From: Christiangramia lutea
GTDB taxonomy: Bacteria; Bacteroidota; Bacteroidia; Flavobacteriales; Flavobacteriaceae
Reading direction: 5' to 3'
Length of the DNA: 64,000 nt
NCBI RefSeq assembly: GCF_022489035.1
Contig: NZ_JAKVTV010000002.1
Location: 186,001 to 250,000, forward strand
Shown here in pieces: positions 15,759-48,895 of the stretch (the stretch's first letter is position 1; the number at the start of each line of letters is the position of its first letter). The translations under genes were made by a program, and so were the position numbers. A model generated the notes under the pieces. It had not been told where the DNA came from. It saw nothing but the letters and a program-made list of their open reading frames with translations, and made no database searches.

Positions 15759-17222
15759 TTAAACTTCTTCAGTCTTTGCTTGTTGTTTATGTTCTTTATA
15801 GTGGAAAAGATTCTTTTCCTTGATCATTTTAGTAGTTCTTTCAGGAAGCATTTCTTCCCATCCAGCCTTACCTTCAGTGATCATTTTAAGAACTTCTCTA
15901 GAGTAAATATCCATGATATTTGGATTGTAGTTCTCTATATCCTCAACTCTTCCGTTGTATTTGAAGAACTTGTAAAGCTCCTTCATTCTTGGATGAACTT
16001 TTACGTTCTCGCTAGTAGTAATCTCCCCGGTTTCTGGGTTTTTAAGAGGGTAAAGATAAACCTTAAGATCTTTAAAGAATAGTTTACCAAAGGCTTCAAG
16101 GATACCACCACTTAAGTGACGGTAGTATTTCTCATCAAATACATCTACCAGGTTCTGAACTCCCATGGTAAGACCCATTCGTTGCTTAGAGTATCGAGAG
16201 AAATATTCTACCACACGGTAATATTCCTGAAAATTAGAGATCATTACAGTCTGACCAAGGGAGCAAAGCAATTCGGCTCTGTCCATAAAATCTCTTTCAT
16301 CAATTTCACCTTCTGCCCGAAGGTTGGAGAGGGTGATCTCAAAAATGATCTCGGTGTTCTCTTTATTTACCTTGGTTTCACTGAAGAAAAGTTCTTTAGA
16401 CCGCTCATACATATCCATATTTACCTTGGTAACAGGCCTGAAACTTCCTCGTAAGGCGAGGATATTCTTTTTGTAAAGTAATTTTGCAGGTAAAACGTTA
16501 TTACCATCAGGTCCAAACATTACCGCTTCGGTCATGCCGTTCTTGACAAGCTGAAGACTCATCAGCCTGTTATCTACATTTTCAAATCTTGGTCCGGAGA
16601 AATTAATCGTATCGATCTCAATTTGATCTTTATCTATGTGGTCATAAAGATATCTCAGAAGTTTCTTAGGATTATCATACTTGTAATAGGCGCCGTAAAT
16701 TAGGTTCACCCCAAGTATTCCCAATGTATTTTGCTGGTGTCTAGCATCATTTTCATGGAAACGTACGTGAAGCAGTATCTCATTATAATCTTCACCGGGC
16801 TCTACCTGATATCTTATTCCAACCCATCCATGTCCTTTGTATTTCTTAGCGAAATCTATGGTAGCAACAGTATTTGCGTAGGTGAAGAATAATTTATTAG
16901 GATGTTTTTCCCTGGAGATCCTTTCTTCGATCAACCTGGTCTCATGAGAAAGCATTTTCTTTAATCGTGCTTCAGTAACATATCTGCGGTCATTCTCCAC
17001 ACCATAAATCGCGTCACTAAAGTCTTTATCATAGGCACTCATCGCTTTAGCAATCGTACCTGAGGCACCACCTGCCCGGAAAAAGTTTCGAACCGTTTCC
17101 TGGCCAGCACCAATCTCGGAAAACGTCCCGTAGATATTTTCGTTTAAATTGATGCGAAGGGCTTTACTGTTTATCGAAGGAACATTTTCAAATTCCTTGT
17201 CGCCCATTATGGTAATTGGCAT
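15759..17222 (-). CDS. Conserved protein of unknown function, 487 residues
   Basis: I do not recognise a characterised family. The protein is soluble, with no signal peptide or membrane segment, and is well conserved in character: a glycine-rich opening (FFRAGGASGTIAKAMSAYDKDF), TYANTVATIDFAKKYKGHGW, a beta-rich centre with GILGVNLIYGAYYKYDNPKKLLRYL, and a C-terminal helical region ending in a Lys/Glu-rich tail. The motif FSGPRFENVDNRLMSLQLV and the VMFGPDGNNVLPAKLLYKKNILALRGSFRPV stretch are distinctive. It stands alone between convergent murA and a divergent metallo-hydrolase. Catalytic residues cannot be assigned by eye. Confidence 0.8.
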   Translation of the reverse strand: MPITIMGDKEFENVPSINSKALRINLNENIYGTFSEIGAGQETVRNFFRAGGASGTIAKAMSAYDKDFSDAIYGVENDRRYVTEARLKKMLSHETRLIEERISREKHPNKLFFTYANTVATIDFAKKYKGHGWVGIRYQVEPGEDYNEILLHVRFHENDARHQQNTLGILGVNLIYGAYYKYDNPKKLLRYLYDHIDKDQIEIDTINFSGPRFENVDNRLMSLQLVKNGMTEAVMFGPDGNNVLPAKLLYKKNILALRGSFRPVTKVNMDMYERSKELFFSETKVNKENTEIIFEITLSNLRAEGEIDERDFMDRAELLCSLGQTVMISNFQEYYRVVEYFSRYSKQRMGLTMGVQNLVDVFDEKYYRHLSGGILEAFGKLFFKDLKVYLYPLKNPETGEITTSENVKVHPRMKELYKFFKYNGRVEDIENYNPNIMDIYSREVLKMITEGKAGWEEMLPERTTKMIKEKNLFHYKEHKQQAKTEEV

Positions 17223-17325: not shown

Positions 17326-18087
17326 TTGGAAGTAACATTTTTAGGAACGGGAACATCTCAGGGAATACCAATCATAGGGAGCGAACATCCGGTTTGCCTT
17401 AGCGATGACCCAAAAGATAAACGTTTACGAGTATCTATTCTTATTTCCTGGAATAATTACAATATCCTAATAGATTGCGGTCCAGATTTCAGGCAACAGA
17501 TGCTTGCCAATAAAGTTAAGAAGCTTGACGCAATTTTTTATACCCACGAGCATAACGATCATACGGCCGGCCTGGATGATATAAGGCCGTTTTTCTTCCG
17601 TCAGGGTGATATTCCTGTTTATGCTCATGAAAGAGTTTTAAAAGCTCTTAAAAAGAGGTTTGATTATATATTCACCACTGAAAATAAATATCCTGGAGCT
17701 CCGGGAGTAAAGGAAAATGTCATTGAGAACAAACCTTTTAATTTTCATGGATTAACCGTAACCCCGGTTGAGTTTATGCATAACAGGTTACAGGTTTTTG
17801 GTTTCAGGATGGAAGATTTTGCTTATTTAACAGATCTAAAGTCCATTAATGATGAGGAAGTAGAAAAACTGCAGGATCTAAAGGTTCTCGTGGTAAGCGC
17901 TCTTAGAATTGAACCACATCATTCTCATTTTAATCTTAAAGAAGCTCTTGAATTTGTAGAAAAAGTCAAACCTGAAACTACCTATTTAACACATATCAGC
18001 CATATGCTTGGTTTTCATGAGGAAGTAGAGAAGAACCTTCCAAAAAATGTACACCTTGCCTATGATAACTTAAAAATTACCGTTTAG
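17326..18087 (+). CDS. MBL-fold metallo-hydrolase (PhnP/RNase Z-like)
   Basis: A 253-residue metallo-beta-lactamase fold hydrolase. The N-terminal strand VTFLGTGTSQGIP is typical of the PhnP and RNase Z branch; the metal motif is THEHNDHTAGLDDI (HxHxDH), with later ligands in the PHHSHFN and THISHMLG regions. The start is TTG 17326, because the conserved VTFLGTG strand begins at residue 3 and a TACTTTTG box lies just upstream. Substrates of such proteins include cyclic phosphodiesters and tRNA precursors; this one cannot be assigned. It is followed after one base by a small membrane-anchored protein gene. Confidence 0.87.
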   Translation: MEVTFLGTGTSQGIPIIGSEHPVCLSDDPKDKRLRVSILISWNNYNILIDCGPDFRQQMLANKVKKLDAIFYTHEHNDHTAGLDDIRPFFFRQGDIPVYAHERVLKALKKRFDYIFTTENKYPGAPGVKENVIENKPFNFHGLTVTPVEFMHNRLQVFGFRMEDFAYLTDLKSINDEEVEKLQDLKVLVVSALRIEPHHSHFNLKEALEFVEKVKPETTYLTHISHMLGFHEEVEKNLPKNVHLAYDNLKITV

Positions 18088-18088
18088 A

Positions 18089-18586
18089 ATGCGCAATAAG
18101 ATCCTGATGTACCTTTTCATCTTTACTTTGTTATTCACCATTTTCATATATGTGAATGATAAGCGTATACTTGATGCCAAGGAGGAAAGAATTGAAAGCC
18201 TGGAAAATCAGCTTGCAGAGCTGGAAAATGATCCAGGTACAACGGCTGAATCTGAGCTAGCTGAAGATTATTTCAACCTTCAGAATAATGAAGATGCAAT
18301 TACTTACTTTGAGAATAAAAATATAGATCCCAGCGATCTGATCCTGAAGATAGAGGATGCCATCATTAGCAAAAATTCTGCGGAAGAGGACAATCCATTA
18401 GTTCCCCAGGCCGGAATGGAAGGCAATATGCGCATCAACAAGATCAAGATATTAAACCACAAATGGGTCATTGCCGATTTTACCGATGGCACCTACTGGG
18501 GAGAAGTTTTTCTGAGCTATGAAGTTACAGAAGGAGGAGAATTTAAATTCTATCCTGAAAAATCTTTCCTTTATCCTTTGTATTAA
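18089..18586 (+). CDS. Membrane-anchored protein of unknown function
   Basis: A 165-residue protein with one N-terminal hydrophobic helix (residues 4-22, KILMYLFIFTLLFTIFIYV), then a charged coiled-coil-like stretch (about 28-55), and a C-terminal globular part (100-165) with NHKWVIADFTDGTYWGEVF that is compact and beta-rich. It begins one base after the metallo-hydrolase stop, so the two form an operon. Its stop overlaps the convergent esterase stop by four bases. The topology suggests a periplasmic domain tethered to the inner membrane. Function unknown. Confidence 0.8.
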   Translation: MRNKILMYLFIFTLLFTIFIYVNDKRILDAKEERIESLENQLAELENDPGTTAESELAEDYFNLQNNEDAITYFENKNIDPSDLILKIEDAIISKNSAEEDNPLVPQAGMEGNMRINKIKILNHKWVIADFTDGTYWGEVFLSYEVTEGGEFKFYPEKSFLYPLY

Positions 18587-38437: not shown

Positions 38438-38468
38438 TTGGTTATGAGTATGGCCTATATTAAATTTG
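38438..38468 (+). promoter_or_regulatory. Ferredoxin promoter split by element insertion
   Basis: TTG at 38438-38440 and TAAATTTG at 38461-38468 are spaced by 20 bases, an excellent Bacteroidota promoter, reading right. It overlaps the acyl-CoA reductase start region and its last four bases lie in the 17-bp att core. In an unoccupied chromosome it would lead into the ferredoxin gene now at 48,985. The element separates them by about 10.4 kb. Confidence 0.65.
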
Positions 38469-38481
38469 TGCAGCGAAATTA
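38465..38481. repeat. attL core, 17-bp direct repeat
   Basis: TTTGTGCAGCGAAATTA occurs here and, identically, at 48879-48895. The two copies bound a stretch whose genes are unrelated to the flanks and which carries a tyrosine recombinase at its right end; this is the expected picture of attL and attR after site-specific integration. Confidence 0.85.
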
Positions 38482-38535
38482 TAAATACTTGTGAATCCCT
38501 GTAAATATTGATATTATATTAATTTAATAATTAAA

Positions 38536-38545
38536 TGTGTGGGTT
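38536..38545 (+). repeat. Putative arm-type recombinase site, left end copy 1
   Basis: TGTGTGGGTT; exact copies are at 38690-38699 (minus strand) and 48791-48800, with a variant TGTGTGGGCA at 38581-38590. TTTGTGCGG overlaps the last base (38545-38553) and recurs inverted at 48823-48831. All lie within about 230 bases of an element end, as arm sites of tyrosine recombinases do. Confidence 0.5.
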
Positions 38546-38601
38546 TTGTGCGGCATTTTTAATTATCATTTTCTGCATTATGTGTGGGCAAAGGTATGAA
38601 A

Positions 38602-38859
38602 CTACCCACCAATTATCCACATATAAACATCCTTAACCAACATCATTGCAAGCTGATTGAGAAAGTTGAAACATATGTAAAGAAATCCTAACCCACACAA
38701 TAGAATCAAAATCTTCCACGTGGGTTTTTTCTTCTTTTTATCTAATATGTATTCAATGATCTCAACCATTAACAGTAAAAGTAAAATCAGTCTTTCATTT
38801 AAAGTGTGACATTCAAAAATAGGGTCGGTTTTTTGAACAATTATGTATGCTTTATACAC
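38602..38859 (-). CDS. Small membrane protein of unknown function
   Basis: The frame opens at GTG 38859 (85 residues), but an internal ATG at 38769 would give a 55-residue protein of the same kind as other micro-ORFs in this element. It has a short acidic start (MVEIIEYILD), a lysine cluster (KKKKKP), a hydrophobic helix WKILILLCGLGFLYICFNFL and a second, shorter hydrophobic stretch at the end. Transcription is toward attL. No family is recognised; being AT-rich, the frame could also be fortuitous. Confidence 0.4.
   Translation of the reverse strand: MYKAYIIVQKTDPIFECHTLNERLILLLLLMVEIIEYILDKKKKKPTWKILILLCGLGFLYICFNFLNQLAMMLVKDVYMWIIGG
38690..38699 (-). repeat. Putative arm-type recombinase site, left end copy 2
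   Basis: AACCCACACA on the + strand is the exact reverse complement of the decamer at 38536 and 48791. It lies within the possible small membrane protein gene. Confidence 0.45.
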
Positions 38860-38995
38860 AAATCAACAGCTACTTTTTAAAATACTGATGGACTTTTAGT
38901 CCAAAAATTCGTCTTTACAGTAAAATTATAACGATGGTTTGGAAGGAATAAGCCTTTTTAGGGCATTTCTGCGTAGTTGGCACAGATAAATAAAA

Positions 38996-39020
38996 ACCCC
39001 CAGCTAGGATAGCCAGGGGT
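38996..39020 (-). terminator. Intrinsic terminator for the gene at 39068
   Basis: On the minus strand ACCCCTGGC and GCTGGGGGT pair (with a small internal mismatch) around TATCCTA, followed by a T-run. It lies about 50 bases after the stop of the gene ending at 39068. Confidence 0.7.
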
Positions 39021-39067
39021 AACAAATAAGCAGCATAAATATAAAATCAAATTTATATACTCTTATT

Positions 39068-39400
39068 CTAATATCTAAGTGGAATTGTCATATTTTCATA
39101 GGGGAACACCCAATTTGCAAACTCTACATTTTCCTCAATGGGTTTATAATGATCTGGCATGCGGTGAAAAAAATAACCAGCGATATTTTCAGATTTGTTT
39201 TTATCTGGATTATAGAAGAATGCCAATTTAACTACATTGTTGACCATTATACCTTTCATAATAGCAATGTAAAAACCGTGCTTCTCAACCATTTCTTCTA
39301 GGAAGGCTTCACGTTCCTTTTTATCCCTGCTTATCTCATCCCAAATACCAATAGGTAGGTCCAGGGTTAAGAGTTCATCAATTACTTCCTGTTCACTCAT
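39068..39400 (-). CDS. Hypothetical protein of the integrated element
   Basis: A 110-residue soluble protein without signal peptide. The N-terminal half is acidic and helical (MSEQEVIDELLTLDLPIG, EREAFLEEMVEKHG); the C-terminal half looks beta-rich, with VVKLAFFYNPDK, GYFFHRMPDHYKP and FANWVFPYENMTIPLRY. A matched terminator follows at 38996, which supports a genuine gene. I recognise no family. In accessory elements, small acidic proteins of this sort may be antitoxins, immunity proteins or inhibitors, but nothing here proves it. Confidence 0.65.
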   Translation of the reverse strand: MSEQEVIDELLTLDLPIGIWDEISRDKKEREAFLEEMVEKHGFYIAIMKGIMVNNVVKLAFFYNPDKNKSENIAGYFFHRMPDHYKPIEENVEFANWVFPYENMTIPLRY

Positions 39401-39887
39401 ATATTTATTTTTCGAAATTTTGAATTTAAAGAAACAAAAATTTTTGATAAGCCATAACTCCTAAATTTGGTCATAACCAAACACAAACGGTAATGGATCA
39501 ATTTGATAGACTTAATCCTATTTATAAGTAAGAAAGGTTTTTAAATTGTACATTTTGCTGGTTTTATTAGTGGTATTATGCACTTTTAGTCGTGTTCATG
39601 ACAGTATGAATAGGGGGTATATTAAAATATGCATAGTTGAGACCATGCGCCAGCGTTGAGTACCCTCCTTCCTGGTATCTTACCCCCTCCCTCCCTGGGA
39701 AGGGCTGTATGATCTTGCTTGTGAAGGATACCTAAGTTTTTTAATAGGCAGTATCCGTTCTTTCATTAGATGTTGAATTTTAATTTCACTTGCTAAAACT
39801 TAGTTGGTCCCAAAAAATTTTTTTAAAATTTTCTGGAATATTTATTTCAGGAAGAATTTCTAATACTGGTGTTGTTGAAGTTAAAAT

Positions 39888-39906
39888 AAGGCCCTTTACG
39901 GGCCTT
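39888..39906 (+). terminator. Terminator-like hairpin
   Basis: AAGGCCC and GGGCCTT pair around TTTAC, followed by a weak T-rich tail. No intact gene precedes it on the + strand, so it may end an RNA or a decayed gene. Confidence 0.5.
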
Positions 39907-40097
39907 TCATTATTAGACGGTATAGAGAGGTATGAAAAAGTTGAAAAGATTAGAATTACGTGTTATAATAAGCAGTATGGGATAGTTGAATGTAAGTTAG
40001 GTTGAAATACTTTGATTTTTTTGATTATGTAGTTGAAAGAGAATTCACAGTATTAGGTGATAATTGAAAATCTGATAAGTTTTACATTCTGGTTTGA

Positions 40098-40178
40098 CAG
40101 GAAGATCAGCTTTTTAAATTAAGATATGGTGAATTTTTGGTAGGTACATTAGAAAATACTAATAATTCTACAGGTTAA
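40098..40178 (+). pseudogene. Possible remnant of a decayed coding sequence
   Basis: A stop-to-stop frame without start codon reads DQLFKLRYGEFLVGTLEN and ends shortly after. Its composition is protein-like and unlike the surrounding noncoding DNA. Upstream the frame is closed by TGA. It may be the fragment of a gene broken by mutations; the parent family is not recognised. Confidence 0.3.
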
Positions 40179-40241
40179 GTATTATTTCTTTATAGTATTA
40201 TAGATTTAAAAGTATTACAATGGTATCTCGATATACCAAAT

Positions 40242-40294
40242 CAGGTATTTGAAAATGACCTTAACCAGGTATTTGAAAATGACCTCAACCAGGT
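40242..40294 (+). repeat. Iteron-like tandem repeat, 24-bp unit
   Basis: Two consecutive 24-bp units (40242-40265 and 40266-40289) differ by one base, and a third starts (CAGGT, 40290-40294). Each unit begins with CAGGTATTTGAAAATGACCT, in which AGGT and ACCT are inverted, giving a near-dyad. They lie about 160 bases upstream of a winged-helix protein gene, fitting either replication iterons or autoregulatory operators. Confidence 0.75.
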
Positions 40295-40450
40295 TTGTGT
40301 TCTTAGTTTCTAATATCCATCATCTTCAATTATAAAACGCTGTTTATCAAAATATAACAGGTTTGTTATATGGTTGTTTTTTTTAAATTCTTCTTGTTGA
40401 TAGGATAGGTTAATGGTAATTTTGTCTCAGAAAATATTATTGGAATTGAA

Positions 40451-41230
40451 ATGAAATATCTAAAACTTAGAAAGCTTAATAAAGAACATTGCAATATTGA
40501 AAATAATGATCTGCAATTATGCGTGGTTTTTACAATTGATACGGTTTCTGATTTAAAGCTCTTATTATACATTCTACAATTTGAGAATGGTCAATTTTAC
40601 GCTAGCACTAAAGATATTGCAAGGAAAGTTGGATTAAAGGAAAGTACTATTAAATCTTCCTTCAAGCGGTTAGAAAATATGGGAATTATTAAAAGGAACA
40701 CTGCAAGTAACCAGGATAAGGGTTTTGGTGGTAAAACCAGATATGTGGATGTTGATGAAGATAGATTAATTGCGCTTTATAATGAAAAGAAAACCTTTCA
40801 AAATAATATGAATGACAAGAAAGGCACAGTACCAGTCGAACCTCTTAAGGAAAAAAAGAACCAGTCAGGAAAACTTGAAATAGGGGCCGTGGATATAGAA
40901 GATCATTGTTTTACCAATACATCAAGAAATCTTAATGATGATTGTGATGCTACTATAATTGGTGATAATCAAAAATATTTGAAATTCGATAATCCTAACA
41001 TAAAAGAACTTCTTGGTAATTACGTTGATATTGGTGTTAGGAATAATCAAGATTTAATAACGGTAATTGATCAGGTATGGACAAAACACAGAGTTGATAA
41101 CAACATTCAGTTATTTAACATTATTGATTTCCATACTTACCTTACAAGGTTCAAGGATGACCAATTAATGAATCCGATAATTGAAAAGTTCTCAAATGAT
41201 TTATCAGGAATGCAAAATCTAAAAATTTAA
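40451..41230 (+). CDS. Winged-helix (HTH_36-like) protein, possible replication initiator or regulator
   Basis: A 259-residue protein. Residues about 36-85 form a winged helix-turn-helix of the type seen in phage and plasmid replication proteins (LLLYILQFENGQFYASTKDIARKVG, TIKSSFKRLENMGIIKRN). The middle (110-175) is a charged, low-complexity linker; the C-terminal part (180-259) is helical and of unknown fold, with FDNPNIKELLGNYVDIG. The tandem 24-bp repeats upstream could be its binding sites. There is no helicase-loader or nickase motif, so a role as replication initiator or transcriptional regulator cannot be settled. It belongs to the integrated element. Confidence 0.75.
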   Translation: MKYLKLRKLNKEHCNIENNDLQLCVVFTIDTVSDLKLLLYILQFENGQFYASTKDIARKVGLKESTIKSSFKRLENMGIIKRNTASNQDKGFGGKTRYVDVDEDRLIALYNEKKTFQNNMNDKKGTVPVEPLKEKKNQSGKLEIGAVDIEDHCFTNTSRNLNDDCDATIIGDNQKYLKFDNPNIKELLGNYVDIGVRNNQDLITVIDQVWTKHRVDNNIQLFNIIDFHTYLTRFKDDQLMNPIIEKFSNDLSGMQNLKI

Positions 41231-41697
41231 GTTCATTTCTGTGTCTATGTTGGATCTGTTCTTAGAGTATTTATTCTTTAACTGTGGAGAGAGCAGATTG
41301 AAAAAATATGAATGGATTACTTTTTATTGAATTACGGTGGTTTTAACAATCAACATGTCCTTAACATCACAAGACTCAATTGTTAAACAAGATAATCATT
41401 ACGCCTTCTTATAATGGAATCAGGTAGAGAAAATGATTGAAGCCTAATTGTTGTTGCCAGTAACGCAGATAGCAGAATCTGTTTTTTCAGTAAAACTGGT
41501 GCCAAGATAATTGCTATTCAAAATAAAAATTTTTAATCATTCTTATAGAAATTAAAGAGTTCTCTCTTGGATAATGGTATTTGATAGATTAAATCTATCC
41601 AAATATCTATCTTAACAAATTTTTACTATGTTTAGATAATCAATTTTGTGATCTTTATAGTTGAGCACTAATATATAGCATAACAAAAATTCAAGTC
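41231..41697. other. Noncoding region with a weak terminator and an operator-like dyad
   Basis: No gene found on either strand. A weak hairpin CAGAT-AGCAGA-ATCTG followed by six Ts (41466-41487) could end transcripts from the winged-helix gene. A strong dyad lies at 41583-41599, about 100 bases upstream of the first micro-ORF. Confidence 0.5.
41583..41599. promoter_or_regulatory. Operator-like 17-bp dyad
   Basis: GATAGATT and AATCTATC are perfect inverted arms around a single base. It lies in the only regulatory space upstream of the micro-ORFs at 41698 and 41834, so it may bind the winged-helix protein or another regulator (inference). Confidence 0.45.
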
Positions 41698-41811
41698 ATG
41701 GAAGAAATTTTAAATTTTCTGAAAGCAATTCAGAAACATGCCACAACGATTATTGGTATTTCAGCTACCGTTATTACATTATTGGAACAATTGCATAAAG
41801 CTTTTATGTAA
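41698..41811 (+). CDS. Micro-ORF: 37-residue single-helix peptide
   Basis: ATG 41698 opens a 37-residue frame: MEEILNFLKAIQKHATTIIG, then a hydrophobic stretch TTIIGISATVITLLEQL and a short basic end (HKAF). It would be an amphipathic or membrane-associated peptide. It lies 22 bases upstream of a second short gene, and both end before a perfect terminator at 42016, which argues for a true two-gene transcript. Length and character resemble the other tiny membrane peptides in this element. Function unknown; toxin-like or accessory to a membrane protein are guesses. Confidence 0.5.
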   Translation: MEEILNFLKAIQKHATTIIGISATVITLLEQLHKAFM

Positions 41812-41833
41812 TCAGCAATTACTAAAACTAAGA

Positions 41834-41992
41834 ATGATGAATTATGAAAATTTAAGGGAATATGCTATAGAGAAAGGTGCTAACCCTGAAGATGTAGATG
41901 ATGCAATTGAAACGGCTAGAGCCAATAATGCAACCAGAGAAGAAACAATTAATCAGATCAGAATCCAAACAGGTGTAGATATTGATGATTGA
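41834..41992 (+). CDS. Small acidic protein, 52 residues
   Basis: Starts at ATG 41834 (or 41837); the frame is open from 41738 but overlaps the preceding micro-ORF, so the later start is chosen. The sequence is strongly acidic and helical: NLREYAIEKGANPEDVDDAIETA, then NATREETINQIRIQTGVDIDD. It pairs with the hydrophobic peptide encoded just upstream, an arrangement (hydrophobic plus acidic peptide, shared terminator) reminiscent of toxin-antitoxin or peptide-immunity pairs; this is inference. The perfect terminator 24 bases downstream supports expression. Confidence 0.6.
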   Translation: MMNYENLREYAIEKGANPEDVDDAIETARANNATREETINQIRIQTGVDIDD

Positions 41993-42015
41993 TTTACTCT
42001 AGATCATTAAAAGTT

Positions 42016-42047
42016 AACCCTCGTGTACTATGAAGTATATGAGGGTT
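42016..42047. terminator. Strong intrinsic terminator, 14-bp stem
   Basis: A 14-bp stem (AACCCTCGTGTACT with AGTATATGAGGGTT, including two G-U pairs) around ATGA, then six Ts. It ends the two-gene transcript at 41698-41992; its reverse complement may also help end transcripts from the minus-strand micro-ORFs. Confidence 0.9.
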
Positions 42048-42136
42048 TTTTAATCTCAATATTTCGTGGTTGTGGGAATAATAATAACGCAGCTATAACA
42101 CCAAAGAGTTTTTTATAACGGTGTCGGTTATCGCAC

Positions 42137-42280
42137 TTAGATTTTTTTTGGTATTAAGAGCATACCATGTAAGTCTTTTTTTCTTAGTGTATCAGACAGC
42201 GTTGCATTTTTTTTGAATAGGGAATCATAAGCTTGGAGTCCCAAACTAAGTGTAGCAATAATAATTCCTATCCATTCCAT
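42137..42280 (-). CDS. Micro-ORF: 47-residue peptide with N-terminal membrane helix
   Basis: ATG 42280 on the minus strand opens a 47-residue frame starting MEWIGIIIATLSLGLQAYDSLF, a hydrophobic helix, followed by a basic, soluble tail (KKNATLSDTLRKKD and IPKK). It lies 78 bases downstream of another minus-strand micro-ORF. The architecture (short hydrophobic helix, then basic tail) matches the micro-ORF at 42600 and small membrane toxins of the Ldr/Fst kind, though no sequence homology is claimed. Unsupported by any family. Confidence 0.45.
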   Translation of the reverse strand: MEWIGIIIATLSLGLQAYDSLFKKNATLSDTLRKKDLHGMLLIPKKI

Positions 42281-42358
42281 ACACCAAATGTAATAAATTT
42301 AACTGTTCTAAATAATCCAATTAAACCAGTTAATTTATATTTGTTTTGATGCAAACCT

Positions 42359-42499
42359 TTAAGCCATAAGCAAAAAGCCAATATCATCAAGCCAATCTAA
42401 GGCCATAGAAAAGCAATGTAGTTCATAGAAACTTTCGCACCAATAGGCAAACACAGGCAAAAGAAACAAGGCAAGAATAATAGGCATACACATAAGCAT
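42359..42499 (-). CDS. Micro-ORF: 46-residue hydrophobic peptide
   Basis: ATG 42499 on the minus strand opens a 46-residue frame with MLMCMPIILALFLLPVFAYW at its start, a signal-like or membrane helix, then an aromatic and acidic tail containing WLDDIGFLLMA. It begins at the arm of a long inverted repeat that also borders the divergent micro-ORF at 42600. The + strand of this stretch is very A/C-rich with few Ts, which is a consequence of the coding bias on the minus strand and favours a real gene. No family is recognised. Confidence 0.45.
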   Translation of the reverse strand: MLMCMPIILALFLLPVFAYWCESFYELHCFSMALDWLDDIGFLLMA

Positions 42500-42595
42500 C
42501 TTAAGAATACCAACCTCAAAATTCTTTCATGAAAGGATTTTAACCGAAGATGGTATGCAGAGGTTGGGTACCGTCTTAATCTTTAATTCTTAAGA
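42499..42595. repeat. Nested inverted repeat between two divergent micro-ORFs
   Basis: Three nested dyads: outer arms CTTAAGAAT (42500-42508) and ATTCTTAAG (42586-42594), extended by a T-A pair; middle arms CCAACCTC (42510-42517) and GAGGTTGG (42560-42567); centre palindrome CTTTCATGAAAG (42524-42535). The outer arms touch the start codon of the minus micro-ORF and lie five bases from that of the plus micro-ORF. Confidence 0.75.
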
Positions 42596-42599
42596 AATT

Positions 42600-42716
42600 A
42601 TGGATATCCAAATAATGGATTTACTTGTTCTTATTCTAAGTGCATTAGGAACGGGATTAATTAAAAGAATAGCCAGTGATCTATATGACTGGGTAAAACA
42701 TAAAATCAAGAAATAA
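42600..42716 (+). CDS. Micro-ORF: 38-residue membrane peptide with basic tail
   Basis: ATG 42600 codes MDIQIMDLLVLILSALGTGL followed by a basic amphipathic tail (KRIASDLYDWVKHKIKK). One hydrophobic helix plus a Trp- and Lys-containing tail is the plan of small membrane toxins such as LdrD or Fst. A perfect intrinsic terminator begins six bases after the stop and an elaborate inverted repeat precedes the start, so this is a compact, independently controlled unit. Function unproven; toxin or membrane-protein partner are both possible. Confidence 0.6.
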   Translation: MDIQIMDLLVLILSALGTGLIKRIASDLYDWVKHKIKK

Positions 42717-42722
42717 TTTTTA

Positions 42723-42746
42723 AACCCTAGCAGAAATGCTGGGGTT
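42723..42746 (+). terminator. Intrinsic terminator of the 42600 micro-ORF
   Basis: AACCCTAGCA and TGCTGGGGTT pair (one G-U) around GAAA, followed by a T-run. It begins six bases after the micro-ORF stop. Confidence 0.88.
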
Positions 42747-42829
42747 TTTTCGTATTGATTAATTCACCGCTGTTGACTAAGTGTTGATAAAAACCTCATT
42801 ACAATAAACTTATGTAGCAAACTAACCTA

Positions 42830-42837
42830 TATATTTG
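42830..42837 (+). promoter_or_regulatory. Candidate -7 box TATATTTG for a structured leader RNA
   Basis: TATATTTG matches TAnnTTTG. Transcription from here would give a leader of about 230 bases before the micro-ORF at 43076. The leader holds a short open frame (ATG about 42863, 18 codons) and several hairpins. Confidence 0.55.
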
Positions 42838-43013
42838 TTTTTGAATTTAAAGGTTCTCTTCTCATGGGAATGGAAGAGAATGTGAAAGAACAAATAGTAG
42901 ATTGTTTAGAACCGACTTAAGAACGTGGGTGAGTTACTGAAGAGTAGGTAACAATAGAACACGGGCTTTTATCTAAATAACCCCCTTATTTTCGCAGAAT
43001 TAAAACCAAATTT

Positions 43014-43075
43014 AATATTAGTTGAATTTTGGTTGTAGTCAGGGGGATACAGCCAATATTAATTAGACTAATATT
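43014..43075 (+). promoter_or_regulatory. Leader stem-loop abutting the start codon of the 43076 micro-ORF
   Basis: Outer arms AATATTAG (43014-43021) and CTAATATT (43068-43075) and inner arms TTGGTTGTA (43029-43037) and TACAGCCAA (43048-43056) form a long stem that ends at the base before ATG 43076. The loop contains GGGGG (43042-43046), and CCCCC at 42981-42985 could pair with it instead. This looks like translational control. Confidence 0.55.
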
Positions 43076-43237
43076 ATGTCTTCTGAGGTTTTAGAAATCA
43101 TCTTAGATAATCCCTGGATAGCTATTATAGCTTTAGGTTTTGCTTTCTTATCTTCCTTTATGGTAAAGTTCGGTGCTCGCTTGGCTGAGATTTTAGGTGA
43201 TTTAATTCAGAAAAAAGTAGAAAAATCAGAAAGCTAA
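43076..43237 (+). CDS. Micro-ORF: 53-residue single-pass membrane protein
   Basis: ATG 43076 opens a 53-residue frame: acidic start (SSEVLEIILDNP), one hydrophobic helix WIAIIALGFAFLSSFMVKFG, then an amphipathic charged helix (LAEILGDLIQKKVEKSES). This is a convincing bitopic membrane peptide. Its start is directly behind a long stem-loop in a leader that begins at a good promoter box about 240 bases upstream. It is larger than typical type I toxins. Function unknown. Confidence 0.6.
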   Translation: MSSEVLEIILDNPWIAIIALGFAFLSSFMVKFGARLAEILGDLIQKKVEKSES

Positions 43238-43282
43238 TTCTTGATCAAATCCCGAGCATCAGCACTTATATATTCTCATAAA

Positions 43283-43441
43283 TTACCAATAGCAGCGGGG
43301 GGTAATTAAAAATATAACGGTTACGGTTAATAAGATTGTGAATAAGTAATTTATATCAATTCTAAATAGGAATGTAATTACATTAAATTGCAATTTATTA
43401 GATGATCTTCTAACCAATTTCATCTGATGCTCAAATATCAT
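43283..43441 (-). CDS. Possible micro-ORF on the minus strand, 52 residues
   Basis: ATG 43441 opens a 52-residue frame with a basic start (KLVRRSSNKLQF) and a hydrophobic helix NYLFTILLTVTVIFLIT near the end. No promoter box or terminator was found, and in such AT-rich DNA a frame of this size can arise by chance, so support is low. Confidence 0.25.
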   Translation of the reverse strand: MIFEHQMKLVRRSSNKLQFNVITFLFRIDINYLFTILLTVTVIFLITPRCYW

Positions 43442-43514
43442 TTATTCAATTATGAAACACCAACTAAGTATGAGTAGAAAAGAGAAAATACCGTAGAACT
43501 TAAATTACCTACAT

Positions 43515-43874
43515 ATGATCAATTGGAAGAGCATTACCCCTGCTACCGAAAAAAAGATGAATGAAATCATTGATGCGATTTCTAAAAATGGTAACTATTA
43601 TCCACCTGATGATAATGTGAATACCCATGCCATAACAACCCTTTTCAAATTAGATGTAGTAGATTATTTTCGATATAGCCCTAACGGTTCTTATCTAATT
43701 ATAAAGGGAACTAAATTTCATGAATTCGTATTCTACCACCCAATTGATTATATAAGGAAGAAACAGTTGAAAGAACATCCTAACTGGATTCAGAAAGGAA
43801 TGAACTTGACGAAGCATTATGGTTGGTTTGTTACTTTAGTTGTGGAAGCCTTTAGGGCATTATTATCAAAATAA
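43515..43874 (+). CDS. Winged-helix-like protein with C-terminal membrane segment
   Basis: A 119-residue protein. Residues 9-75 look like a small winged helix: a helix KKMNEIIDAISKNG, a recognition-like segment NVNTHAITTLFKLDVVDYF, and a beta wing SPNGSYLIIKGTKFHEFV. After a basic linker (IRKKQLKEHP), the C-terminus GWFVTLVVEAFRALL is hydrophobic and would be a tail anchor or amphipathic membrane helix. The same plan recurs in the larger gene at 44378, two genes downstream. Unrecognised family; a membrane-tethered sensor or regulator is a hypothesis. Confidence 0.65.
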   Translation: MINWKSITPATEKKMNEIIDAISKNGNYYPPDDNVNTHAITTLFKLDVVDYFRYSPNGSYLIIKGTKFHEFVFYHPIDYIRKKQLKEHPNWIQKGMNLTKHYGWFVTLVVEAFRALLSK

Positions 43875-43971
43875 TATTTAAACGGCAAATTTGACCTTTA
43901 TAAACTTTAGATCATACTCCAAAAGCTGGGGGTGGGAAATAAATTAAAGTATTAATCGTAAAAATTAGAAC

Positions 43972-44292
43972 ATGACTGAACATGACTTTATCACAAAATT
44001 GAATAATATCCTTCAACAGCAGACGAACCATGCAATGGCATTTAAAGATGTTGTATTTGAACATCGAGAAAATCTTGAAGATAGAACCCATAAAATATAT
44101 GAAAAGGTTTACGAATTTAGAGATAAGGATTTACCAGCTAAAACTACGAACCTAATTATTGATGCTTATTCTGATTTAATAAGTTCATACATGGATTTAT
44201 TTGATAAATCATTATATCATATATCACCAGCTATAGAAAATGTAACTGAGTTTACAGAAGTTCTTACAGAGCGAATGAATGCTTTAAGTTAA
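43972..44292 (+). CDS. Helical hypothetical protein, 106 residues
   Basis: A soluble all-helical protein: TEHDFITKLNNILQQQTNHAM, FKDVVFEHRENLEDRTHKIY, then AKTTNLIIDAYSDLISSYMD and a terminal helix TEFTEVLTERMNAL. No signal peptide, membrane helix or known motif. It lies between the two winged-helix membrane proteins on the same strand with gaps below 100 bases, so all three may be one transcript. It could be a coiled-coil partner of them; nothing more can be said. Confidence 0.6.
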   Translation: MTEHDFITKLNNILQQQTNHAMAFKDVVFEHRENLEDRTHKIYEKVYEFRDKDLPAKTTNLIIDAYSDLISSYMDLFDKSLYHISPAIENVTEFTEVLTERMNALS

Positions 44293-44377
44293 GGTAATTT
44301 CAAATGACTACGCAGTCCGATTAAGCTGGTATTTTTAAATTTGCAAGACCTACGATGAGCGAGGGAAAATATTTTAA

Positions 44378-45181
44378 ATGAATAATATAGATTATAGACA
44401 ACCTTTGATTATTGAAGGAATAATGATTTACGAAATATTAGATCATATTTTTATTGATTTTCTTTCCTTAAGATCAAAATTCCCCTTCCATATTACCAAC
44501 TTTAATAGAGCATTAAATGATCTTATCCAATTGGAACTTGTAGAAAAAGATGATGAAGGGGAAGAGATATTATATAGTTTAACAGAAAATGGTTTTACAG
44601 CTTCTAATTTGGGGTTGGAAGCCTATATGAAGAAGATAATATTTCAAAAAGCTAAAGAATATTTATTTACACTAACTAAGTGCAGCACAAAACTTGAAGT
44701 ACATATTACCAACCAATTAGTAGCTGAAGGAAAACTATATAATAATGGCAAAGGATTTAAACCAGTACCGAATCAATCAGTTGATATTAGAGATTATTTG
44801 AAACCAGATGCCAAATACCTGGATTCTATAATAACTGAAGTTAAATATAAGAACATCACAAATAAATATTTTCAGGAACTTTCAAAGGTGGATTATAAAT
44901 TTAGGAATGGTGTGAAGGAATTGAAGGATGGTAAACTGATTGTTAGTGAAAAGGGTAGGTTTATACTAACAGAAAAGGGTAATGAAGTTTTTGATATCGG
45001 TTATCCAAAATGGAAACATGATCAGGATACCCCAGAACCTAAAGAACCTACTACCAAAAAAGAGATTAAAGAAAATTCAAAAAGTTTAATTAAAGAGATA
45101 AGTGATTGGGCTGAGGATCATAAGGGATTGTTGGTTATTATCGGTTTAATTCTTACAATTATTGGAATATTATTTAGTTAA
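44378..45181 (+). CDS. Tandem winged-helix protein with C-terminal membrane anchor
   Basis: A 267-residue protein. Two winged-helix-like units are visible: residues about 27-75 (RSKFPFHITNFNRALNDLIQ, ending in ILYSLTENGF) and about 160-205 (KVDYKFRNGVKELKDGKLIV, ending in RFILTEKGNEVF); the L-T-x-x-G turn is typical of MarR/PadR-like wings. A Pro/Lys/Glu-rich linker (210-235) leads to one C-terminal membrane helix GLLVIIGLILTIIGILF. The protein would therefore sit on the cytoplasmic face of the membrane. Known families with a wing and a tail anchor are rare; I recognise no specific one. Confidence 0.7.
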   Translation: MNNIDYRQPLIIEGIMIYEILDHIFIDFLSLRSKFPFHITNFNRALNDLIQLELVEKDDEGEEILYSLTENGFTASNLGLEAYMKKIIFQKAKEYLFTLTKCSTKLEVHITNQLVAEGKLYNNGKGFKPVPNQSVDIRDYLKPDAKYLDSIITEVKYKNITNKYFQELSKVDYKFRNGVKELKDGKLIVSEKGRFILTEKGNEVFDIGYPKWKHDQDTPEPKEPTTKKEIKENSKSLIKEISDWAEDHKGLLVIIGLILTIIGILFS

Positions 45182-45198
45182 AATAATGAAAATAAGAC

Positions 45199-45229
45199 TA
45201 TAAGCTTACAATCGACCTATATAAGCTTA
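45199..45229. repeat. Paired TATAAGCTTA sites two helical turns apart
   Basis: Two identical decamers containing the palindrome TAAGCTTA, spaced 21 bp start to start. They may be subsites of a resolvase crossover or operator region for the recombinase encoded downstream. Confidence 0.45.
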
Positions 45230-45437
45230 TATCCTTTTGTTTGGATTTCTTCCTTTTGTGATCAGGACCCCCAGATACCGTTAATCTGTTAATTTCCCAT
45301 TCCCACCCAACATTCAGTAGCTCATAAATTTGTGATCTGTATTAAAAATAGGGCATGGCCTAACCGTTATATAGTTTTGTATTTACTACAAACATAATTA
45401 GTGATTCAACATAGTGCTAAATAAACCCACCCTAAAA

Positions 45438-45468
45438 TTGTTACAATTGTAATAATGTTTTATATTTG
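45438..45468 (+). promoter_or_regulatory. Promoter of the serine recombinase with internal palindrome
   Basis: TTG (45438-45440), 20 bases, TATATTTG (45461-45468). The spacer contains TTACAATTGTAA (45441-45452), a 12-bp perfect palindrome where a bound regulator would block RNA polymerase. The recombinase ATG follows at 45506. Confidence 0.65.
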
Positions 45469-45505
45469 AAGTAGTCAAATAATCATTATTTAAATCACTT
45501 ATCCA

Positions 45506-46102
45506 ATGAAAGCAAGATACATTAGAATCTCAACCCCAAACCAAAAACACCAACGCCAATTGGCAGAACAGCATAAAGATGAACAGGTGTATTTAGACGT
45601 TTGCAGTGGTTCAATTCCCTTCAATGAGAGAGAGCAAGGGAAAGGTCTATTGGGTGCAATAGATCAAGGGGAAATAAGTTATTTAAGTGTGCATGCAGTG
45701 GATCGATTGGGTAGGAATTTATTAGATATATTAACCACACTTCAATTACTGGATAAGGCTGGGGTAGTAGTGAAGGTCGATAACCTGGGGATAGAAAGCA
45801 GGATTAAAAATAAATCTAATCCAGCATTTAAATTGATCATATCGGTACTGGCCAATATTTCAGAAATGGAACGTGAAACAATGTTGGAAAGACAACGTGA
45901 GGGGATTGCCATTGCAAAAGCTAAGGGGACATATAAGGGGCGTGAAAAAGGCAGTACTGAAAGTATAGCTGATTTTCTATCTAAATATCCCCAAGTGGTT
46001 AAAGAATTGAAATTAGGTGATAACAGTTTACGCAAGATCGCAAAGCTTTGTGATGTATCACTAGGAACCGTACAGAAGGTGAAGGGGTACATTGAAAATT
46101 AA
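45506..46102 (+). CDS. Serine recombinase, resolvase/invertase family
   Basis: A 198-residue small serine recombinase. The catalytic serine is Ser9 in RYIRISTPNQKHQRQL; the DRLGRNLLDIL arginines are present near residue 70; the long E-helix region is ISEMERETMLERQREGIAIAKAKGTYKGR; and the C-terminal helix-turn-helix is SLRKIAKLCDVSLGTVQKV. This is the standard 180-200-residue resolvase or invertase form, not the large integrase type. Its own promoter carries a palindrome, suggesting autorepression. It may resolve multimers or invert a segment of the element; no invertible segment flanked by hix-like sites was identified. Confidence 0.92.
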   Translation: MKARYIRISTPNQKHQRQLAEQHKDEQVYLDVCSGSIPFNEREQGKGLLGAIDQGEISYLSVHAVDRLGRNLLDILTTLQLLDKAGVVVKVDNLGIESRIKNKSNPAFKLIISVLANISEMERETMLERQREGIAIAKAKGTYKGREKGSTESIADFLSKYPQVVKELKLGDNSLRKIAKLCDVSLGTVQKVKGYIEN

Positions 46103-46116
46103 AAGGGAACCAATAA

Positions 46117-46230
46117 TTAATATTGCTCATAGAAGTTTTTAGCAGCCTTTTTCAAATCTTCAATTTTGTTGGTGTCAATATTACCACCCTCAGTTATTAC
46201 AATAGCGATTGCAGAATTTAAATTTTTCAG
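46117..46230 (-). pseudogene. Remnant of a small coding sequence
   Basis: A minus-strand frame of 37 codons without ATG start reads LKNLNSAIAIVITEGGNIDT, continues KIEDLKKAAKNFYEQ and ends at TAA. It is preceded in frame by TAA. The composition is clearly protein-like, so it appears to be the 3' end of a gene that lost its start, or a gene with an unusual CTG or TTG start. No family is recognised. Confidence 0.35.
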
Positions 46231-46290
46231 GCAATTTTAGGATGGCTAAAAAAGAAATCCAATTCACCCAGAATAGTTAGATTGACTAAA

Positions 46291-46704
46291 TTAATCTATA
46301 TGAAACCTTGTAATTAAAGGTTCTTTTCCTTGATCATTTGTAATAGTCCTGGATATTACATCTATTTTACCTTCATCATTTTCTAGAAAATTCCATTGAG
46401 CATTCACCCGAACACCCTCAAATATCAAGTAGGTTTTACACGATGCCACCAATTTGGATCTACCCAATTGAAGTTTGAACTTATTATCTGCCAAAGACCA
46501 AATTTCGGTATCAGTATCACCTTCAGGTCTAAATGTTCGCAATAGTAACCTATCTTCAAACAAAATGATTTCTCTCTTTATATGTTTAAAAACTTCACCA
46601 TCAGCAGGAGTGGTAACATATTCAGTAATGGGTGAGTGGAATACCTTTTCCTGGCCATGTAAAATTCCCCCCAATAAAAAAACCAATAATAGTAACCGTT
46701 TCAT
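46291..46704 (-). CDS. Secreted hypothetical protein of the element
   Basis: A 137-residue protein when started at ATG 46704, where a clean signal peptide begins (MKRLLLLVFLLGGILHGQ); the longer frame from 46785 overlaps the upstream gene. The mature part has HSPITEYVTTPADGEVFKHI and looks beta-rich, with ILFEDRLLLRTF and VRVNAQWNFLENDEGKIDVI. It would be periplasmic or exported. Being cargo of a mobile element between a recombinase and an integrase, it may be an exported effector or immunity protein; there is no direct evidence. Confidence 0.65.
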   Translation of the reverse strand: MKRLLLLVFLLGGILHGQEKVFHSPITEYVTTPADGEVFKHIKREIILFEDRLLLRTFRPEGDTDTEIWSLADNKFKLQLGRSKLVASCKTYLIFEGVRVNAQWNFLENDEGKIDVISRTITNDQGKEPLITRFHID

Positions 46705-46714
46705 GATTATTAAA

Positions 46715-47161
46715 CTACATGAATTTTTCAAAATCATAGAGGTGAAATTTATCTTCCCGTATATGTAATTTGTCAGTTCCATCAATGCCTAAATAACAAC
46801 CTCCTTGCCTGTAATCATATTTGATAATATGACCTTCCTTTTTGATCTCGAGGTTTTGAAAAATATATTGAACCTTGCCAAAGTCTAATTGTAAGCTTAA
46901 AAGAAAATTAGAGATATCATTATTAATTACTTCTTTCCAGGTTGCATAATGACCACTATGCCTTAAGCGTTTTCCATAATATTTTCCTTCAATATCTTTG
47001 ACAACAACCCATACATTTAAGGATATAATATCAACATCCTTTTCAAACCTTTTAGCCATGAAATAGTAGTCCACCCAAATCTTAGATTGAATTTCTTTGG
47101 GGATCATTTCTCTATCCTTTTTTGTGGTAGTTGGTCCTGAATATTCATTTAATTCTTTCAT
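46715..47161 (-). CDS. Hypothetical soluble protein of the element
   Basis: A 148-residue protein without signal or membrane segment. The first half is charged (TTTKKDREMIPKEIQSKIWVD) and the second half beta-rich with aromatic residues (VQYIFQNLEIKKEGHIIKY, CYLGIDGTDKLHIREDKFHL). It lies ten bases upstream of the secreted protein gene on the same strand, so both form a small operon behind the integrase gene. No family is recognised; a cytoplasmic partner of the secreted protein is conceivable. Confidence 0.6.
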   Translation of the reverse strand: MKELNEYSGPTTTKKDREMIPKEIQSKIWVDYYFMAKRFEKDVDIISLNVWVVVKDIEGKYYGKRLRHSGHYATWKEVINNDISNFLLSLQLDFGKVQYIFQNLEIKKEGHIIKYDYRQGGCYLGIDGTDKLHIREDKFHLYDFEKFM

Positions 47162-47206
47162 GAAATAGGAAAAATTCCAAGCAAAAATAGGAAATAATCC
47201 ATTATT

Positions 47207-48751
47207 TTAATTGATTAAGTTGGATAATCCTTCTGATATTTCATCATTCTTTCTGCTGAACCTACCTCTATACTTTTCGGTTGTGGACAACCACTTATGG
47301 GTAAGGTATTCACCAGCTTGGTGTGCGGTCATACCTTCATCAAACATCATTTGGGATGCGGTATGTCTTGTTATGTGAGAGCTTATTTTTCTATCTACAC
47401 CAGCTTTTTTGGCAATGCGATCAATGTAATCCGAATAGCTATTTATGTTTGATCTCATGGTTTTTAAATCTTTATTTGTCCATTGCTCAGGTGACCTTTC
47501 ACCCCAACAGGATTCATTACCCCAATCCCAAATGTATTCATCTGGATGATTTTTTATAACACCTCGTAAAATATCTTCGACATAGCCTTGTTTCTGTTTG
47601 AATAAGCTTTCAATCTTCTTTTCAAGCTTTTTCAATTTCTTATGAATTGGATGAAATTTTTGATTTGTAATATCTTCTAATGAATATCCTTTTTTCAATA
47701 GATCAATTAAAACATCATTAGGTATTTTATTAACTGGTGGAATACTTTTCTGGGTTCTTTCATACTCCTGTTGGTTATATTCGATTTGCTTATCAAATTC
47801 CCCTAATTTTTGTGTGGTATGGGTAACATATTTGTCCAATTGATTAGCCAATAATAGAATAATAGATGGGGGTAGAGGTCTGTTTATATGATTTTTACCC
47901 TTGGAGGTAAAAAAATCAACATTGATATGATCATCATAGGTAACAAGATTAGACCACTTCAATAACATAATATCCCTTACTCTAAAGGCCCCCCAGAACT
48001 GGAATTTGGACATATTATGGCATAACTTATACTTATGAGGTTTGCGTACATTTTCTGGTAATACAGCCTTTACATAGCATTCAAATTCTTTCTTGGTAAA
48101 GGATTTTGGAGTGGTTGCCGATATTTCCTTATCGTATTTAAATCTATGGAAAGGGTTCTTTTGATGCCCTTTCAAATCAAATGAACAATCAGGATTTTCC
48201 AGGGCATCATTATACATAGCCTGAATGCTTTCAATATATTTCTTAGCGGATGAAGCTTTCAGGTTTGAATTACGCATCCATCTATAGAAGTCATTCATTA
48301 ATGTTCTGGTGATATCACCAAATTGAAGACCAATTAACCCATGAATTTCCAAGAACTTCTTAAGTTTCTTAATAGCATATTGATCATTCACTTTAGTATC
48401 TATATTTCCCCTTCCTTTCATACGCTTTTCAGCATAGTTAAAGAAACTGAGTTTACCACCCGTGATCTTCTTTTCTTTCTGTTGGGTAATTTCTTTTGTG
48501 GTGAATCCTTTTAATTCAGCTTCAATCTGAATCATCAGATCATGAATCTTCTGATTGATTCGTCTGTAATCAGGTTCGGTGGTTTTTACCCAATTCTTTT
48601 TATCACTGGTTCCTTTTTTATTCCAATTTTGTTTCTTTATTTTTACACCCACTGATGGACGTGCTATGGGGTATTTACCACCATCATGAACATTGATAAA
48701 AATATAGAGGTGATCTTTACCTGCACTTCTGGTTTTTGGTGTAATCTCCAT
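47207..48751 (-). CDS. Tyrosine recombinase (phage-integrase family), integrase of the element
   Basis: A 514-residue tyrosine recombinase. N-terminal arm-binding-like part (1-75), SAM-like core-binding domain (about 90-205) and catalytic domain (about 220-514). Catalytic residues: Arg257 in GAFRVRDIMLLKW, a beta-hairpin Lys near TSKGKNH, His459 and Arg462 in SSHITRHTAS, a His in LTHKWLSTTEKY and the nucleophile Tyr494. Between the first Arg and the HxxR box there is a long charged, coiled-coil-like insertion (about residues 300-390). The gene reads inward from attR, 128 bases away, and surely encodes the element's integrase. Confidence 0.93.
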   Translation of the reverse strand: MEITPKTRSAGKDHLYIFINVHDGGKYPIARPSVGVKIKKQNWNKKGTSDKKNWVKTTEPDYRRINQKIHDLMIQIEAELKGFTTKEITQQKEKKITGGKLSFFNYAEKRMKGRGNIDTKVNDQYAIKKLKKFLEIHGLIGLQFGDITRTLMNDFYRWMRNSNLKASSAKKYIESIQAMYNDALENPDCSFDLKGHQKNPFHRFKYDKEISATTPKSFTKKEFECYVKAVLPENVRKPHKYKLCHNMSKFQFWGAFRVRDIMLLKWSNLVTYDDHINVDFFTSKGKNHINRPLPPSIILLLANQLDKYVTHTTQKLGEFDKQIEYNQQEYERTQKSIPPVNKIPNDVLIDLLKKGYSLEDITNQKFHPIHKKLKKLEKKIESLFKQKQGYVEDILRGVIKNHPDEYIWDWGNESCWGERSPEQWTNKDLKTMRSNINSYSDYIDRIAKKAGVDRKISSHITRHTASQMMFDEGMTAHQAGEYLTHKWLSTTEKYRGRFSRKNDEISEGLSNLIN

Positions 48752-48878
48752 CAGATAATTAAATTAATTAAAGAAAAATGTGTGTGTTTGTGTGTGGGTT
48801 AAAGGTAATTTATTGATGGCTACCGCACAAATTAATATTTTAAAGTACTGAAATTAAAGGAGTTTTTGAATAAATTCT
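48752..48878. promoter_or_regulatory. Right-end control region of the element with arm-like sites
   Basis: Contains the decamer TGTGTGGGTT (48791-48800), CCGCACAAA (48823-48831, inverse of the left TTTGTGCGG), and on the minus strand a near-consensus integrase promoter TTTG, 20 bases, TACCTTTA. Recombinase arm sites overlapping the integrase promoter would allow autoregulation. Confidence 0.5.
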
Positions 48879-48895
48879 TTTGTGCAGCGAAATTA
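48879..48895. repeat. attR core, 17-bp direct repeat
   Basis: TTTGTGCAGCGAAATTA, identical to the copy at 38465-38481. Upstream of it the sequence is TAAATTCTTTTG, so the TA of the TAnnTTTG box present at the left end is not rebuilt here. Confidence 0.85.

Follow-up and report, generated by a model that had tools for sequence, protein, structure and literature searches.

A predicted tail-anchored winged-helix protein encoded beside a serine resolvase on an integrative element of Christiangramia lutea

Introduction

TubR, one of the plasmid centromere-binding proteins with a winged-helix fold, works with TubZ. AspA of pNOB8, another such protein, works with ParB and ParA according to the account in PMC5120986. 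At the membrane, ArnR and ArnR1 of Sulfolobus acidocaldarius are described in PMC6396743 as one-component regulators that combine an N-terminal helix-turn-helix (HTH) domain with a C-terminal membrane anchor; for ArnR, the same description lists a putative HAMP domain, a sensing domain and two transmembrane domains. ElaB and YqjD of E. coli have a single C-terminal transmembrane helix and no N-terminal signal, and the description in PMC6389858 on which we draw reports no winged helix in them. In the Lamassu defence system, LmuC is encoded beside an SMC-like ATPase. Integrative elements of Bacteroidota that use a tyrosine integrase carry att repeats, the integrase gene, a replication-initiator-like gene and a serine resolvase gene.

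In this study, we analyzed a window of 64,000 nucleotides from Christiangramia lutea (contig NZ_JAKVTV010000002.1, positions 186,001 to 250,000, forward strand), which contains an integrative element encoding a 267-residue protein, here called P3. Set side by side by description, P3 resembles ArnR and ArnR1 in its N-terminal HTH domain and predicted C-terminal membrane anchor, and it differs from ArnR in having one tail helix and two to three winged-helix units and in being encoded on a mobile element. The first unit shares the winged-helix fold of AspA and TubR; unlike these proteins, P3 is predicted to be tail-anchored, and a scan of ten proteins of the element matched neither a ParB/ParA nor a TubZ partner. 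With ElaB and YqjD it shares the predicted single C-terminal helix and the lack of an N-terminal signal. A weak profile match (E = 2.9e-4) relates P3 to LmuC, from which it differs in its membrane tail; no SMC-like or other ATPase was matched beside P3 in the same scan. The element has the features of the Bacteroidota elements listed above and differs from them in that no relaxase was matched (ten proteins scanned) and in its cargo of small unassigned proteins.

Results

Three small genes are cargo of an integrative element

Three open reading frames follow one another on the forward strand: P1 (43515..43874, 119 aa), P2 (43972..44292, 106 aa) and P3 (44378..45181), with intergenic gaps of 97 and 85 bp. 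By codon usage they seem to be genuine genes; the codon score of each in its own frame exceeded the best of the other five frames (z = 4.6, 3.4 and 6.4 for P1, P2 and P3 against 500 base shuffles), with statistics trained on the host genes in the window. TAnnTTTG is a promoter motif of Bacteroidota. One copy starts at 44336, 42 bp 5′ of P3; because 11 such motifs occur on the forward strand in about 10.6 kb, it is weak evidence of a promoter.

All three genes are cargo of an element that spans 38465..48895 (10,414 bp from repeat to repeat) and is bounded by a 17-bp direct repeat, TTTGTGCAGCGAAATTA, at 38465..38481 and 48879..48895, both on the forward strand and nowhere else in the window. All 23 further genomes from the genus have an empty insertion site. 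Two genes, for an acyl-CoA reductase and a ferredoxin, flank the 10.4 kb in C. lutea; they are 131–137 bp apart in 22 of these congeners and 58 bp apart in one, and the 17-bp core at the empty sites is exact in 13, has 1–2 mismatches in seven and 6–7 mismatches in three. The G+C content of the element is 0.316, compared with 0.385 and 0.369 in its flanks. With direct repeats at both ends, an empty site in relatives and an integrase gene inside the boundaries, this is an ordinary integrative element, here in a marine-type bacterium.

The tyrosine integrase gene (47207..48751, reverse strand; PF00589, E = 1.2e-12; PF13102, E = 7.1e-13) lies near the right end. A serine resolvase (45506..46102, forward; PF00239, E = 9.3e-23) follows P3, and a replication-initiator-like HTH protein is encoded at 40451..41230 (forward; HTH_36, E = 6.6e-9; PHROG 428, replication initiation, E = 9.3e-12). 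Upstream of the latter, at 40239–40294, lie two near-identical, iteron-like 24-bp tandem copies; this repeat, scored as 2.2 copies at 40242–40294, was the only candidate for a partition centromere. A 110-aa protein (39068..39400) and a pair of 148 and 137 aa (46715..47161 and 46291..46704) are encoded on the reverse strand. Among the ten element proteins scanned, none matched a relaxase, nuclease, ATPase or partition partner, and the element DNA from 40400 to 48300 had no match in plasmids and phages. One end of the element (38602–39400) encodes a lysine-rich peptide with a single transmembrane segment together with the 110-aa protein.

A sister element in Gramella jeungdoensis

A related element of 12.4 kb (L015:6101-18555), bounded by a 19-bp repeat, is present in G. 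jeungdoensis. Its site is empty in the C. lutea genome, where the flanking genes adjoin at 17222 and 17326. In both elements, a P3 gene lies directly upstream of a serine resolvase gene on the same strand, separated from it by 324 bp in the window and 272 bp in the sister element. The two elements also have in common the 39068 protein (69% identity), the 46715/46291 pair (43% and 25%) and the resolvase (25%); the first of these was found in 2 of 248 genomes. A small membrane ORF beside the 39068 protein was read by eye in both, the counterpart in L015 of this element end lying at about 17830–18372. The integrases are 24% identical, and the initiator-like protein of the window had no significant match to the 896-aa protein of the sister element, which itself matched nothing in Pfam or PHROG. 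This mix of matching and non-matching genes indicates that some modules are common to the elements and others have been swapped. The stretches between P3 and the resolvase are marginally similar (5 of 500 shuffles score as high). A palindrome at 45441, TTACAATTGTAA, is too common to count. The sister element encodes a second small tail-anchored protein of 128 aa (L015:11849-12235), for which the matches besides itself in 99 relatives (E = 2e-4, with one internal stop, 0.0027 and 0.008) were not convincing.

Predicted architecture of P3

Residues 11–130 of P3 were modelled by AlphaFold2 with ten-residue mean pLDDT values of 76–89 and include an N-terminal winged helix. VIA-align matched the model to MarR/HxlR-type regulators with Z up to 11.3 (rmsd 2.0, 70 residues aligned), many MarR entries having tied Z values; the alignments mainly span residues 1–79, and families absent from them are therefore not excluded. 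In Foldseek, AspA was the top match with a best E of 1.1e-3, and no match had E of 1e-3 or less. Among solved structures, those closest to P3 belong to winged-helix DNA-binding proteins and include AspA (profile E = 0.02–0.033) and TubR (profile E = 0.46; VIA-align Z = 10.2). The matches reflect a winged helix of generic type, and those to AspA and TubR therefore carry little weight. Further along, near residues 179–205, HTH_45 gives a fainter winged-helix signature (E = 1e-4 for the whole protein and 4.8e-3 for this piece by itself, neither reaching the curated cut-off). It falls within residues 136–229, where AlphaFold2 gave pLDDT below 50. No profile match to a sensing domain was obtained. 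A 71% DNA repeat within the gene (44580–44613 and 44967–45000) falls at the ends of the two winged-helix units; short two-copy repeats of this kind often arise by chance.

The extreme C-terminus of P3 (about residues 249–267) is a predicted tail anchor. It contains a hydrophobic 18-mer with a Kyte–Doolittle (KD) hydropathy of 2.79, and the tail helix at residues 249–266, with block pLDDT of 66–73, reaches the C-terminus. Among the 76 mechanical ORFs of at least 100 aa in the whole window, only four have a tail KD of at least 2.0. A transmembrane segment, as in membrane-bound one-component regulators, is thus predicted by hydropathy, and the tail is kept in all three homologues. The first-pass annotation had described P3 as two wing units with a definite tail anchor. 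The N-terminal unit and the tail stand, and membrane tethering of a winged-helix protein holds as a prediction for P3; the second unit is a weaker proposal, with its profile match under the cut-off and no AlphaFold2 support.

P3 belongs to a small, rare family

Full-length P3 matched sequences in three of 99 relatives: its own genome, G. jeungdoensis (39% identity over 109 aa) and a third genome, G044 (33% over 135 aa), with identities in the family ranging from 29 to 39% by the two alignments. A profile for P3 relatives (A1) found, among 299 family genomes, its own genome, G044 and five matches with E of 0.00185–0.0068 that we took as chance, and among 375 phylum genomes its own genome alone; these scans scored at most eight and six candidates per genome, respectively, and may miss relatives. 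A contig scan yielded one locus, that of G. jeungdoensis. No relatives were found in plasmid and phage collections or, by exact peptide patterns, in viral contigs, and we noticed no description of the family in literature searches, which is no proof of absence. P3 thus represents a small, rare family for which no name was found in the libraries searched, a modest novelty.

Its three members all have a predicted tail anchor. The best 18-mers (KD 2.79, 2.71 and 2.17) stop 0, 2 and 1 residues short of the C-terminus. In the middle unit, G124, K125 and K128 are invariant, and wing 2 is basic in all three homologues (K+R 3, 3 and 4; D+E 0, 1 and 1). Wing 1 is acidic in all three (K+R 1, 1 and 2; D+E 7, 4 and 4). 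Unit 3, which has no confident model, is present only in the P3 of the window.

The G044 homologue has other neighbours. It ends 27 bp ahead of the HARE-HTH gene of a type I restriction operon, which also encodes HsdM, HsdS and an AAA_13 protein. On the other side, at a distance of 0.2 kb, are candidate defence genes (PDC-M64C, E = 3.1e-9; PDC-M64B, E = 2.6e-5), and this side also holds an HTH_3 gene. A relaxase gene lies about 7 kb away. Unlike both element-borne copies, this homologue has no adjoining resolvase.

P1, P2 and the upstream micro-ORFs

P1 is an orphan and possibly a winged-helix protein: a single-sequence model is winged-helix-like at low confidence (mean pLDDT 47.7), and there was no match in Pfam. 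With a KD of only 0.74 for its best 19-mer and with E and R among the C-terminal residues, the end of P1 is amphipathic and therefore not a transmembrane anchor. By eye, P1 has the same architecture as two other proteins, one of 128 aa from the sister element and one of 108 aa encoded at L070; pairwise alignments among the three were not significant. P2, also an orphan, gave only insignificant or uninformative profile matches. Searches of 99 relatives and of 199 genomes of the family, two sets that overlap, gave no convincing homologue of P1 or P2. The non-self matches of P1 were two with E of 7e-4 and 0.009, each with an internal stop, and seven more of 0.012–0.096, and those of P2 had E of 0.0022 and 0.0012 and seven of 0.011–0.083. 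One weak P1 match (L075, E = 0.05), looked by eye like the frame of a WYL/HTH-type regulator and not like P1.

Small hydrophobic or mixed peptides are encoded upstream of P1 at 41698, 42600 and 43076, with weak to moderate codon support (z = 2.6, 1.3 and 3.3). They are separated by two hairpins, at 42016 (fold z = −5.9) and 42722 (−3.8), that each lead into a run of T; terminator-like sites as a class are not enriched (seven, against 5.7 in shuffles, sd 2.4). Two of the leaders fold better than shuffles (z = −3.85 and −3.39); the stretch just before 43076 is not unusual (z = −0.55). Because of the two strong terminator-like hairpins and the folded leaders, the micro-ORFs look like independent small transcription units rather than effectors of P3. 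The stretch 42500–43237, with its small hydrophobic peptides, folded leaders and terminator-like hairpins, resembles type I toxin units.

The first-pass annotation had proposed a coherent three-gene system acting with these peptides, in which the proteins at 43515 and 44378 would both combine winged helices with a hydrophobic C-terminus. The positions of the three genes and their common strand were confirmed, and the pairing of features applies to P3; for P1 it fails on the low-confidence model, the lack of a Pfam match and the amphipathic end. Joint distribution, the check that the first-pass annotation itself had named as able to refute it, did not bear the system out: G. jeungdoensis and G044 each have a P3 homologue and no P1 match at E of 0.1, and the one P2 match (G044, E = 0.044) lies about 1.9 Mb from the P3 homologue. 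With no convincing P1 or P2 homologue in the 99 relatives and 199 family genomes, we rejected the block from 41.7 to 45.2 kb as a conserved unit. A conserved three-gene system is not supported by these sequence comparisons, and the three-gene framing should be dropped.

Discussion

We tentatively propose, with a probability of roughly one in three (about 0.35), that P3 is a tail-anchored cytoplasmic winged-helix protein that acts on the DNA of its own element as a membrane-bound one-component regulator or tether. The C-terminal helix would insert P3 in the inner membrane and leave all winged-helix units in the cytoplasm. Units 2 and 3, with their net basic wings, would contact element DNA, the acidic unit 1 would serve protein contacts or dimerization, and P3, encoded beside the resolvase, would regulate or tether the excised, replicating element. 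We favour a membrane-bound protein acting on element DNA because the tail is conserved, wing 2 is basic and the place beside the resolvase is kept on two elements, and it is this conserved place that links P3 to element maintenance. The acidic wing 1 speaks against canonical DNA binding by the best-modelled unit. Other explanations stay alive because of this wing, because the fold matches are generic and because the third family member lies in a defence island. A bolder version, in which P3 founds a family of tail-anchored multi-winged-helix proteins that, paired with the resolvase, fasten the excised circle to the membrane as a segregation or dimer-resolution device without a ParA-type motor, seems improbable to us.

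What links P3 to defence is the restriction island around the G044 homologue, near the PDC-M64C and PDC-M64B candidates. P3 could be a cytoplasmic winged-helix sensor against phages or other invaders, with a membrane tail that brings about or sets off arrest or damage to the membrane once an invader is sensed. Its weak profile matches to NDT_II-A (E = 2.4e-4) and to LmuC and its nature as small, rare, fast-evolving cargo would suit a role in conflict, although the PADLOC hits are weak and cover parts of the sequence that are generic winged helix. This island is also only one of three P3 contexts; in the other two, on the elements, P3 has a resolvase as its neighbour, and the scan of element proteins matched neither a nuclease nor an ATPase. 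We regard a defence role as possible but doubtful. Much the same can be said of the idea that P1, P2 and P3 are unconnected accessory cargo with separate roles, P3 being an ordinary soluble-type regulator, incidentally membrane-bound, that regulates only its neighbour. The promoter-like motif before P3 is consistent with this idea, as are the two homologues of P3 set against none convincing for P1 and P2. However, that every homologue keeps the tail anchor suggests a functional part for the membrane. Against the idea also stand the winged-helix-like appearance of both P1 and P3 and the second small tail-anchored protein encoded by the sister element. Quite unlikely, in our view, is an addiction or toxin–antitoxin-like module of P1, P2, P3 and the micro-ORFs, close to the original proposal, with the hydrophobic peptides as toxins and P3 as controller: the small peptides with folded leaders upstream would fit, but terminator-like hairpins lie between them, the leader next to 43076 is not unusually folded, and P3 homologues occur without P1 or P2.

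Should P3 regulate or tether the DNA of its element at the membrane, it would be a simple and testable example of how a mobile element can see to its own upkeep with one tail-anchored winged-helix protein. If it is a defence protein, it would add a membrane-anchored component that is unnamed in the libraries searched here. In both cases, a well-defined test system is provided by the element as mapped, the empty insertion sites and the sister element.

Small charged proteins with a single C-terminal helix may be enriched near genes of such elements. In 298.5 kb of 15 fetched loci (13 fetched for the 46715 family, L015 and L016) we found four: the two P3 homologues, the 128-aa protein of the sister element and the 108-aa protein adjoining an integrase gene in L070. 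The same scan found none in 94.9 kb of congener housekeeping loci, and in the window P3 alone. This is a hint and not a rate, most of the 15 loci having been chosen for a gene of the window element. The 46715 family itself recurs in the genus and was rejected as a hallmark of the element, being present in 12 of 248 genomes in mixed contexts; of the 13 loci fetched, six (L059–L064) were annotated and L070 was read. In L070 (3826–6215), the 108-aa tail-anchored protein is encoded between a 46715-family gene and a tyrosine integrase gene. The C. lutea genome carries a second copy of the 46715 family at G000:C1:252352.
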